Program-made: the position numbers and the translations under genes
Shown here: piece after piece, positions 12,577 through 44,999 of the stretch
How the letters are laid out: the number at the start of each line of letters is the position of its first letter
Position numbering within the stretch: the stretch's first letter is position 1
The notes under the pieces: model-generated
Told to the model about the DNA's origin: nothing
The model's input: the letters and a program-made list of their open reading frames with translations, nothing else
Database searches by the model: none
DNA from: Tubiluchus corallicola
Taxonomy: Eukaryota > Priapulida > Priapulimorpha > Priapulimorphida > Tubiluchidae
DNA: 64,000 nt
Assembly (NCBI GenBank): GCA_030141605.1
Contig: JAQGDQ010000074.1
Coordinates: 430,773-494,772, forward strand
Direction of reading: 5' to 3'

Positions 12577-12738
12577 GAGCAATATTTGAAAATACGTATC
12601 GAGACGGTACGCTGCAGAAAGTATTTGAATATGCAGTTATGAAGGTCAATCAAAATCCAAACATTTTATCAAATCATCGACTAGTAGCTGACATTCGATA
12701 TGTGCCAGCAGAAAATAGCTTTGAAGCCTCTAAAACAG
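12577..12738 (+). CDS. Gene A exon: ATD start
   Basis: Acceptor ttatatttacag; donor G|gtgagg. Encodes [17 protein letters not shown] and onward to SFEASKT, which aligns with the GGIFE...FRFAVNTIN...SFEASKKAC stretch of GluK ATDs. It starts with two bases completing a glycine codon and ends with one base of the next alanine codon. Confidence 0.85.
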
Positions 12739-15700
12739 GTGAGGTCGAACATTGTTTGACGCAGTAACTAGCTTTACACACGTCACGCTTTATGGTCACG
12801 TGTTACCGTAGAGTAGATATTCCTAAAAAACAATCGAATATAATAAACTTACTTAATTAAAACACTTGCCCTAACTCAAACACTTTCAATTGACTTTCAC
12901 ACCAGCTTTCAATTTTAGCCCATGATAGATGAAGTTCAAACGTTTGACAAAGAGGGCGACTATGTGACCGATAATTTAATATTTTTGGGCTGCCTGACGA
13001 AAAGGCTGAATCTAGATAACTGGCAAACAAAAACGGGAAATTGGGCGAAAGTCGACTAAAATGACCAACCAAAAAGGGAACACATAGTCTTTCTAGTTTG
13101 CAAACTGACAGAAAACAAGAGACAGAATAGAAGAGGAGAAGAAAAGCGAGGAAAAAAGTGGAGAGAATGGCAGAGGAAGGAAGAAGACGAGAAAGGAAAT
13201 GGGAGGGTGAAGAGGAGAATTATTTCATGGTGATAAGATGAGAATAGAAAATGATTCTCCTGTGCATTTTTGGGTATTGGAATGATGGTAAAGTATTATT
13301 TAAAAAGAATAATTAATCTACTATTAATTTTCAAAATAAAGTTTGATAGCTACTACGCTAAAATTATTACTGTCGCAAATTCAATGTAAACCTGCATTAA
13401 GTATGTTTTTCGTTGTACGTAGTGTACAATGCTGTACATAGTCTAGCAATGTTCAAATCTAATTCAAATCTAAATTTACGTAACACGGTATGTGTTATGG
13501 CGCATTCAGACTAGCGAGTTTTCTGTCGCGAACTGCTCTATGAGTTACTGTCGGCAAGAAATTGCAAATTCAGCTACAGTTGCTGCGAGTTGTACTAAAG
13601 TGAGCTCTAATCTGGGCATACTATCGAGTTACTTTACAAGAAAACGTTAGTTTTACATATTTTTATATCCCGAATTCTCCTCAGATATGTTAGGGTTCTA
13701 GCAAATGTATATTATACGGGAGGAAAGTCAGTAAACTTCATGTAAATTGAACAACATTATACCGATTGCAAAAGTAGAAGAGACTACTTTACAAAATTAG
13801 ACCATAAAAGGTTTGGGAAATCTAATAAAACACGTTTAGGGAAGAAAACAGAACCCGAAATTTCTAGATACCCAGACATTCCGGGATGAAAAAATACATA
13901 GTAACAGCCATTTGTTAATTAAATTGGAACAGGCAAAAACTGAAAAGTGGTTGGCCTATATTATTCGCGTTCTCTTTCAATTCAAGAGAGATAGATCGTG
14001 GAAATTAAATGGATTTCAATCAACAAAATGAAACAAACTAAGCTATAGTGTTTTGAAGTACAGGCTTTATCCATTGAAAACATTGAAGGTTGAATCACAG
14101 CAATTACTGATTGCGTTATGAATGTGTATGTGTAATAGCTGGACTGATGTTACTTGGATCCTACTGCTCTATAGCCACTTTGTTAAAGTAAACTACTGCG
14201 AAAGTATTGTCTAGTTAATCAAGCTATTAATGAATCAATCACGAAACGCTTGCAGATAAGTGTTGTCATCTCCATTAATAACTAAAACCAATATTGTAAT
14301 CATAAAAGTGTCTTAGTAAGCGTTTACAGAAACTCGTAATTTTTAATAACACAGACTCTCTAATGTATGTTGAAGTTACTGTTATTGTTAAAATTGCTGT
14401 CTGTTACTGATGATAAAATTGCTGTTTGTTACTGATGAAGTTGAGGTCTTCTTACTTGTGTGTGTTGTACTTAAATTCGTTTCAAAAAGTTGACCAAATC
14501 TGAAACAATATTGAGAAATTAAAAGATTATGTTCACGATGAGTTACACGTAACTGAAACTCAATTAATTAAACAATAAAAAATGGGAAGCATTCAATTAT
14601 CATTAAAAATGTTTTGCAAGTTATAACAACCAAACATTATCTTTAACGGTTATTGATTTTTTTAGTGGTTTCGTTTAGCATTTTCGCGGTTTGCGATTGG
14701 TAACGGAACGTGTAACGGAATACTCGCAATGGCTAAAAATTCTAAAATTTGTAGTTGGGTGGTCGGTATTAACATACCGGGAAGGCAAAGTAAGCTGTTT
14801 TGAAATACAAGTATAGCAGTGTAAAGAGCAGTATAGAGCTCTTTAATTCTAATTTCTAAACTCTCTCAGCGCGCATCCATTTCTCTCTACAACAAAAGCA
14901 AAACACTCGAACATCCTTATAAGCAAAGTATTTCTGCTCGAGTATCATATCCACCAACGATAAATTTAGATGGATGATTAAACTAATTTGCTGTTCGCCT
15001 AGTAAATGATTAATGCGGTTTTCAAGAGATTCGTGACTCGCTACTGTGAAGTACATGAAATGAAAAGAGTGTGGGCCTGCCTGAGAGAAATTTCTAAATG
15101 CAATTTAGCAAGATTTGCTGTCACTGTATAGCTGCATTTTCAAGAAGTGTGAGAATGCGTATAAGAAGCAAAGCAAACATAAGTAAAGCCCTAAATGTTT
15201 CGAGGAATTTATGGAATAAAGCTTTTTTGAATCGTGCCTGTAGACTCCGTTGCTTTTCTCGTTACTTCATCATAGATGTTGTATTTACCGTTCACTTCAT
15301 CTTAGGTATCACACTGTTATGTCATCATTTGTGGTTGCCAGTTCCTTGATTAATAATGACACCATCCACTATTATTATCGTTATTAAAGCGTTGTTTCGT
15401 CGTTGTTCTTATTGTCTTGCCTTCAGTGTTAGGGGTAAACCTAAATATCAGTGTTGCTCGTCATATAGCTGGTGTTGTTCCTCTTACCGTTAGCATCTTT
15501 ATCATTATCGTTTAACATTGTTGTTATTGTCATTATCACATTCGTCATCACAGCGTCATCACCATCATTATCATCGCCAAGCACAAAGACAAAGGCAACG
15601 TTTATTTACTCTCTCTCGTTTTAACAGACAACATTAGCACTAACATTTAGCGACTTATACTGATAACAATACAGTTAGGTCGCAACACACAAATAACGAA

Positions 15701-44100: not shown

Positions 44101-44999
44101 AATAAGACGAGTTCTAGTTAATATTTTAAATAAATGTTTACTATTTACATGTTACTTATTTTAAGATTATGTAATCGTACTCACTTGCTGTAGTGTGTGG
44201 AAACACTCAACATGTGTTACTCTAAAGTTGCTCATAAACTCTGAAGGAACAGTTTCTCGTAGGACATATGAAATCTAATGAACCATTTTGTGTAACAGTG
44301 TTCTTTGTTTCAGGGATAATAACAAAAAAGAAAACAAAGCTAATGAGCTGGGAGTGGAACAGGTGGGAGGCATTTTTGTTGTCCTTCTCGGGGGCCTTGC
44401 ATTAGCGTTTGTGGTGGCCATAGTTGAATTCACTCTGAATTCAAAAAGGAACGCTCAAACTGATAAGGTGGGTTTATTCAAAATTATTGCTAAGTTACAC
44501 ATCTGCATTCACCTTCATAATGAGACCTGTTTCAAACGTCATTTGTTTTGCTTCAAATTCATGTGCGTATTCAAAATTCGGAATTTCCTGCTACTGATAT
44601 GTACCGTCACTAGTAGAAAATGCAAAAATTAAAGAATTTAATTGTATTATAATATCATTCCTTATTATTAGTAATGTTTTAGCCATAATTGTGTAAAAGC
44701 GATTGAGTAGTTCTATACTTATTAAAATAGTGAGCATCATTTTCGGTTCTAATTTGTTGCAGCAATCTGTGTGCTCTGAAATGGCGGAAGAATTTCGATA
44801 TGCCATTCGTTGTCATGGCAGCCAACAGAGGCCAGCTCTGAAGCGGAAGTGTTCGCAGTGCGAACAGCAACAGGCAAACACTTACGTACCGGCAGGCGAC
44901 GCTGTGTACATCCCAGAATCTAACGGAGGCGTAATGCAAATGATGGAGGTGCGCAGATCGCCCGTACATTATAACTACGAATCAGCTTCTGAGATTTAG
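40919..44999 (+). CDS. GRIK: Module B: kainate receptor LBD, channel and tail without ATD; six exons
   Basis: Exons: 40919-41131, 41814-42374, 43099-43324, 43900-44011, 44314-44467, 44763-44999; 500 residues in one open frame. It encodes S1 ([21 protein letters not shown]), M1, the pore loop MQQGSD, M3 [10 protein letters not shown]2 with [10 protein letters not shown]4 and a C-tail. The agonist residues (R in YKREK, ST in GGSTM, E in LMEST) are kept. The first exon begins with a phase-0 acceptor, so an upstream exon is required, yet no ATD exon is visible in the 3.4 kb after gene A. Exon lengths copy those of A, except 213 versus 204 and 226 versus 223 bp and the tail. It may be an alternative 3' cassette spliced to the gene A ATD, an ATD-less receptor, or a truncated duplicate. 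No stop or frameshift is seen, which argues against an old pseudogene. Confidence 0.88.
41814..42374 (+). CDS. Module B exon: S1 end, M1, pore loop, M3, start of S2
   Basis: Acceptor tgtttatttttcag; 187 codons, exactly as in A. Encodes [19 protein letters not shown]1, [18 protein letters not shown] (Q/R-site codon 42150-42152), [15 protein letters not shown] and GGSTMTFFK. The homologous donor position reads AAG|gcacgt, so the intron appears to start with GC. The nearest GT is four bases further and would break the frame. Confidence 0.95.
42628..42728. repeat. Compound (CT)n(GT)n(GCGT)n microsatellite
   Basis: CT to 42675, then GT, then TGCG-type units. It lies in the module B intron that follows the apparent GC donor. 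Same unit order as 55286-55429. Confidence 0.95.
43099..43324 (+). CDS. Module B exon: S2
   Basis: Acceptor taaattatag; donor G|gtattt, phase 1. Encodes [30 protein letters not shown] and [19 protein letters not shown]. One codon longer than the gene A exon (226 versus 223 bp). Confidence 0.95.
43900..44011 (+). CDS. Module B exon: S2 end
   Basis: Acceptor gatctttcttccag; donor AACAG|gtgatt. Encodes [19 protein letters not shown] then [14 protein letters not shown]. The 112 bp and both phases match gene A. The exon is not marked by any long open frame but is unambiguous by homology. Confidence 0.94.
44314..44467 (+). CDS. Module B exon: M4 transmembrane segment
   Basis: Acceptor gttctttgtttcag; donor AAG|gtgggt. 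Encodes [20 protein letters not shown], the M4 helix, then [16 protein letters not shown]. 154 bp, same phases as gene A. Confidence 0.95.
44763..44999 (+). CDS. Module B exon: cytoplasmic tail and stop
   Basis: Acceptor ctaatttgttgcag. Encodes [17 protein letters not shown] and a tail ending YNYESASEI with stop TAG at 44997-44999. The last residues S-E-I fit a class I PDZ ligand (S/T, any, hydrophobic). The proximal tail is close to that of A and the distal tail differs. Confidence 0.93.
   Translation, partial: QSVCSEMAEEFRYAIRCHGSQQRPALKRKCSQCEQQQANTYVPAGDAVYIPESNGGVMQMMEVRRSPVHYNYESASEI

Follow-up and report, generated by a model that had tools for sequence, protein, structure and literature searches.

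Does a locus of the priapulid Tubiluchus corallicola, in which one amino-terminal domain (ATD) is followed by two tandem copies of a ligand-binding domain (LBD) and ion channel, make two glutamate receptors behind a single front? The question arose from a sequence-only reading of a 64,000-nucleotide stretch, hereafter the window (contig JAQGDQ010000074.1, positions 430,773 to 494,772; C1776:430773-494772 in our numbering of contigs). Our analysis covers the genomic sequence of one assembly (343.5 Mb in 2344 contigs), in which COX1 has no match; the window holds no N letters, and since the locus was read from genomic DNA alone, splicing is inferred throughout. The explanation that we consider probable is one kainate-receptor gene with alternative 3' cassettes, A and B, behind a common front. 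Such sharing of the front is the reading with the best support, as B has no ATD and is also without the first strand that an LBD of this kind requires.

All parts of this gene lie on the forward strand. The ATD set (12577-28953) consists of nine exons, e1 to e5 at 12577-12738, 20986-21101, 23256-23406, 23752-23927, and 25364-25417, and e6 to e9 at 25965-26114, 26954-27106, 27265-27369, and 28849-28953, which join in frame into 391 residues with no stop and with GT-AG at every border; this length excludes the first (signal-peptide) exon of the gene. The last exon, e9, carries the end of the ATD, the ATD-LBD linker, and the residues LKVTTIL, and ends in a phase-0 donor (CTG/GTAGGT, the slash marking the exon border). 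Cassette A (31088-37553; exons 31088-31291, 32087-32647, 33372-33594, 33773-33884, 36540-36693, and 37284-37553) encodes 507 residues, and cassette B (40919-44999; exons 40919-41131, 41814-42374, 43099-43324, 43900-44011, 44314-44467, and 44763-44999) encodes 500. Both run from the LBD (TAPYV in A, EEPYV in B) through the channel to the tail, in six exons of 204/561/223/112/154/270 and 213/561/226/112/154/237 bases with equal internal phases, intact frames, and their own stops. Their proteins are 68% identical over 509 aligned columns, and all cassette borders are canonical except the donor of B exon 2. The rebuilt exons bear out the geometry of the sequence-only reading, namely an ATD set ending at 28953 in phase 0 with VTTIL, phase-0 cassette starts at 31088 and 40919, separate stops, near-copy exon lengths, and an ATD-B product of about 890 residues (891 obtained, first exon excluded). 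It had mentioned neither the GC donor of B exon 2 nor a candidate exon, e9', described below.

The locus is predicted to encode a kainate-type ionotropic glutamate receptor. The Pfam models PF01094, PF10613, and PF00060 all exceed their cut-offs on the ATD-B join, with ATD, LBD, and Lig_chan in order, and the PF01094 match spans residues 14-349 of the ATD set. A search of solved structures with exon 2 of A gave kainate subunits or entries named 'Glutamate receptor' in the first 17 rows and GluA next (among the best 60 of 336), and the top six rows for the end of e9 joined to B1 and the start of B2 are all GluK1.

What B can do by itself depends on where the cut between front and cassette falls, and this is inside the LBD, just after its strand 1. 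GluK1 LBD crystal constructs (about 258 residues, four alignments) start with RTLIVTTILEEPYV at chain residue 1-3; the corresponding end of e9, LKVTTIL, we take from the known LBD fold to be the first strand of LBD lobe 1. With the e9 residues the match to PF10613 begins at profile position 2 (150.2 bits for B, 152.6 for A); without them it begins at position 10-11 (139.3 bits for B, from 10; 142.4 for A). Because the GluK1 constructs include strand 1 and the profile is entered late without e9, neither cassette is a complete LBD, and the earlier view that each set starts at the first LBD residue and is complete has to be given up. In addition, no in-frame ATG was found between the stop at 40817 and the B1 acceptor, and the first in-frame ATG of B1 is the sixth residue of EEPYVM. 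As cassette B has neither strand 1 nor an in-frame upstream start codon, a normally folded B receptor needs to obtain strand-1 sequence from further upstream, at the phase-0 end of another exon.

No ATD for B was found, either beside the cassette or elsewhere in the assembly, at E values up to 0.001, in agreement with the original observation that B has none of its own. The whole-assembly search with the ATD of A returned ten matches, eight of them its own exons and the others one each in a third receptor gene at the window's end (gene C) and in a paralog on contig C19. Its reach is limited, with one match for each of these two ATDs and none for a receptor gene on contig C543; an ATD that resembled that of A to the degree seen between the two cassettes should have shown. 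A protein search of the assembly with cassette B returned B once and then A, which is 81% identical across the main exon; a further close copy, a second haplotype of B, or a misplaced ATD did not appear.

Strand-1 exons were sought by giving each seven-residue peptide that precedes a phase-0 GT a score against four reference strand-1 sequences, on both strands of the window and 15 fetched loci (16 sources, 209 kb). Four sites scored at least 25, namely the ninth exons of this gene, gene C, and the C19 paralog, and e9'; the next best site scored 21. The two strand-1 ends found on the strand of B within the window, those of e9 and e9', both lie upstream of A. In the gap between the cassettes (37554-40918), which shows no match to an ATD, no clear signal-peptide exon, and strand-1 ends of at most 18, four sites reach 15, with donors scoring -1.6 to -7.5, and the best two reach 18 (donors -1.9 and -2.1), so that the scan gave no convincing strand-1 exon private to B in this interval. 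An open reading frame with its ATG just after the stop of A, at 37689, ends in CKLTSVI and scores 16 with a donor of -1.6; it was set aside as weak. The intron between e9 and A1 and the gap between A and B share only short and weak matches, and the breakpoints of the duplication are therefore not visible.

The candidate exon e9' (29505-29576) comprises 24 codons in phase 0 at both ends (TTTCTAG/ and /GTATGT), 551 bases past e9 and 1.5 kb short of A1. The region around it occurs once in the assembly, the sole match being itself. In random sequence generated at order 3 from the locus, one e9'-like end occurred in 3 Mb, or 0.0007 per 2134-base intron (the donor not counted), and at order 1 none occurred. 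Joined to B, e9' gives PF10613 147.4 bits from profile position 2. By eye, it resembles e9 in its strand-1 end and is dissimilar in the remainder. Its splice sites are weak (acceptor -1.8, donor 3.05), although still better than the A1 acceptor and the B2 donor. As a single short exon known from this one genome, e9' is best described as a candidate. Exon e8 ends in phase 0, in phase with e9', which may therefore replace e9 behind e8 as an alternative ATD-LBD linker exon; it could also head a product that has no ATD. The Pfam ATD match stops at residue 349, ahead of e9, which we presume to hold the last ATD strand, a strand that e9' would lack.

In the explanation that we prefer, the six 3' exons would have been duplicated in tandem. 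Transcripts that splice e9 (or e9') to A1 and end at the poly(A) signals of A would yield receptor A, and those that read on and join e9 (or e9') with B1 over a distance of some 12 kb would yield receptor B. The two receptors would have the assembly domain and LBD strand 1 in common and differ in most of the LBD, in the channel, and in the tail. Given the weak A1 acceptor, A would be the option in need of help, and e9', as a possible alternative linker exon, would provide a second choice at the ATD-LBD linker. A two-by-two gene, in which one ATD is combined with either e9 or e9' and with either cassette, so that as many as four receptors with a common assembly domain result, is a further reading that we find doubtful. 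The initial proposal of two receptors from one locus gains from the lack in B of an ATD, of strand 1, and of an upstream ATG; the splicing itself, its regulation, and the use of e9', which had not been foreseen, we infer from the layout.

The signals around the cassettes are compatible with such an arrangement. The intron from e9 to B1 would measure 11,965 bases, and the longest intron within the ATD set measures 8,247. AATAAA occurs after the stop of A at 37814 and 37835, and downstream of B the earliest ATTAAA is at 45835 and the earliest AATAAA at 46739; as the AATAAA search gave 199 matches against 153 expected, position alone says little. Intron size and poly(A) signals would thus fit alternative 3' cassettes without proving them. 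Pyrimidines make up a fraction of 0.44 ahead of A1 and of 0.69 ahead of B1 (positions -20 to -5), so the noted poverty of the A1 tract stands, whereas the regulated choice that had been read into it does not follow: a weak A1 acceptor is compatible with regulation without showing it, and could also mean that A is poorly used.

The sequence-only reading had also taken the canonical junction and its phase as a sign of alternative splicing. However, both gene C and the C19 paralog have a phase-0 donor after TSIL at the ATD-LBD junction, as e9 has after TTIL. Since these paralogs have it too, the phase-0 junction is ancestral, and its exactness in A and B follows from duplication; the matching phase therefore adds little. 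In a five-row tree, A and B are sisters and gene C pairs with the C19 paralog, with an ultrafast bootstrap of 100 for each grouping; the outgroup consists of joined GluK1 and GluK2 pieces and the row of gene C carries a few border residues, so that the grouping alone is usable.

Cassette B is an old copy whose protein is under constraint. Over 492 codons, dN between A and B is 0.24 with saturated synonymous sites (pS 0.82), and segments such as FLMESTT are intact in the translation of B. With the protein kept for so long, silence or decay of B is unlikely. Identity by exon is 82% in exon 2, which encodes the pore, 51% in the first LBD exon, and 44% in the tail; B differs from A where the ligand-binding and tail functions lie.

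Several observations weigh against a shared front spliced to two cassettes. By a matrix trained on the locus, with leave-one-out scores for locus sites, the A1 acceptor (31063-31090) is the last of 21 acceptors (-5.9). Among 1445 other AGs of the locus, 60.6% do at least as well as A1; B1 ranks 15th among the acceptors, and 11.7% of those AGs do at least as well as it does. Acceptor strength gives no positive proof for B, and the cassette with the doubtful entry is A. The GC donor of B exon 2 (42372-42380; AAG/GCACGT, cut at 42374/42375) scores 0.0 in the leave-one-out test, the lowest of 19 donors in the locus; B would be truncated if this donor fails, and a GT four bases beyond it would shift the frame. 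The strand-1 scan recovered four of five known junctions. The one missed belongs to a divergent receptor on contig C1408, whose LBD exon (position 5704 of the fetched locus) starts at the same junction, TTTTTGCAG followed by EPPF; its strand-1 exon was not picked up in 17 kb, where the best end that has a usable donor scored 16, and a private strand 1 that has diverged strongly could escape likewise. This miss lowers our confidence in the shared front and raises that in a private exon. A blunt scan for signal-peptide-like exons, which has no positive control, gave nothing convincing in 37554-40918; as the 32.6 kb upstream did not yield the signal-peptide exon of the gene itself either, that negative counts little. 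Finally, e9' provides another route to B.

B may instead constitute a gene in its own right, with a promoter and a private, unrecognised first exon from which a signal peptide and a divergent strand 1 are encoded. The 3.4 kb of unexplained sequence between A and B would leave room for it, A has its own AATAAA signals at 37814 and 37835, and the miss at C1408 shows that the scan could overlook a divergent private exon. We nevertheless regard it as unlikely: the LBD of B belongs to the kainate- and AMPA-like kind whose junctions the scan found, four of them at 23 or more, as against strand-1 ends of at most 18 in the gap, where the best two have donors at -1.9 and -2.1, and no ATD for B turned up elsewhere in the assembly at E values up to 0.001. 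Alternatively, B (or A) may be expressed as a short receptor without an ATD, from a promoter in intron 9 or further up, through a signal-peptide exon and e9' to A1 or B1. Here e9' is a phase-0 strand-1 candidate placed ahead of both cassettes, and it completes the LBD profile when joined to B. Yet its phase suits an ATD-bearing transcript through e8 equally well, and no signal-peptide-like exon with a phase-0 donor of at least 2 was seen in 28954-31087, in a scan that again has no positive control; such a short receptor seems quite improbable to us.

That B is a dead or dying duplicate from which no receptor is made could be argued from its GC donor and missing ATD, but six intact exons with FLMESTT and other segments preserved, the dN of 0.24 at saturated synonymous sites, and a B branch shorter than that of A in the amino-acid tree (0.21 against 0.37) make it very unlikely. 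An assembly artefact, in which the ATD of B was dropped or misplaced, would be conceivable for a conclusion that rests on a single assembly; with no N in the window, no orphan kainate-type ATD at E values up to 0.001, and B found once, it is hardly credible. A single gene with a common front and alternative cassettes thus remains the explanation that we favor.

The kainate-binding proteins of frog, chick, and goldfish are channels without an ATD, encoded by separate genes with their own signal peptide. A product without an ATD from the present locus would match them, although the scan for signal-peptide exons, which has no positive control, gave no private one. The closest solved relatives by sequence are vertebrate GluK1-3, which are alike in ATD, LBD, and channel; they differ in that a tandem second LBD-channel cassette is not mentioned in the available parts of a survey of human splicing, where the variants described for ionotropic glutamate receptors are flip/flop exons, tail variants, truncations, and an insertion near the ATD end of GluK1 (PMC8257547). 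According to the same parts of that survey, GluK1-1 and GluK1-2 differ by an alternative exon in the ATD-LBD linker region, as e9' might be; the GluK1 exon is a 15-residue insertion, whereas e9' would replace the linker and bring its own strand 1 (PMC8257547).

The layout itself has a counterpart in the GABA receptor gene unc-49 of C. elegans. As described in the parts of the reports available to us, a common block encoding most of the extracellular N-terminus is followed there by alternative 3' blocks, each with its own parts of the binding site and transmembrane segments (PMC6920096, PMC11296113), and the products have the N-terminal part in common (PMC7260190, likewise in part). One N-terminal block followed by at least two 3' blocks with their own stops is also the arrangement of the present gene, with the splicing presumed. 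The two systems differ in that unc-49 belongs to the Cys-loop family and has three blocks and established splicing, whereas the present gene is a glutamate receptor with two blocks, joined inside the LBD after strand 1. No glutamate receptor locus of this layout was found in the literature covered, which leaves out most subscription papers and all bioRxiv preprints, and the available parts of PMC5225553 and PMC6307864 hold no passage on it. If our explanation is correct, one gene would exchange almost all of its ligand-binding and channel machinery and retain the ATD. Assembly of A with B, and of each with the same partners, would then be possible, with their ratio set by splicing instead of two promoters. 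Moreover, the unc-49 layout would have been invented independently in an unrelated channel family, a natural domain-swap experiment.

Other receptors of the assembly give a background to this locus. Gene C, a third kainate-type receptor (48989-64000, reverse strand), is convergent with the present gene, and its own ATD continues beyond the window end; its junction reads LEVTSIL and then EPPYL, and its ATD matches lie near 61 and 63.8 kb of the window and at C1776:503378-503656. The C19 paralog has ATD matches and one cassette of the A/B kind within 40 kb. On contig C543 (138001-156600), a tandem receptor pair that we take to be AMPA-like was compared over 18.6 kb that lead up to the second copy and enter it. 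There the downstream copy is preceded by exons that look ATD-like by eye and by a strand-1 exon, MIITSIL, which scores 23, and loss of the ATD is therefore not general among tandem copies here. A reverse-transcriptase-like open frame was also noticed by eye upstream of that downstream copy.

On C1556, C344, C1241, C654, C397, and other contigs, numerous single open frames about 470 codons long, with several to a contig, give weak matches to the glutamate-receptor channel model; we take this large expansion to resemble the chemosensory ionotropic receptors. Contigs C1428, C1809, and C2110 hold three longer frames (919-932 codons), which have channel matches and share 37-41% identity with B in the part that matched; that on C2110 additionally has ATD-family matches, and all three are possibly intronless receptor genes.

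Some smaller features of the region may be recorded. An upstream open reading frame looks signal-peptide-like; it ends at 5567 in MLTFMLLGFVNSFA, and its phase-1 donor scores 7.0. It was not adopted as the first exon of the gene, as the ATD would then miss the strand with which it is expected to begin. An intron of the ATD region contains a repetitive stretch rich in Ser, Thr, Ala, and Pro codons (22388-23075), in which two frames are open for 163-180 codons. About 200 bases, 75% alike and with the look of a dispersed repeat, occur just upstream of e1 (12205-12398) and in the A4-A5 intron (about 36.2-36.4 kb), and long CT/GA simple repeats lie at 34279-34590, in the same intron, and at 46448-46700 and 59275-59685. 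Finally, about 45 kb upstream of the window, C1776:383226-385643 holds an open frame, 1466 codons long, that matches the ANF_receptor family twice.

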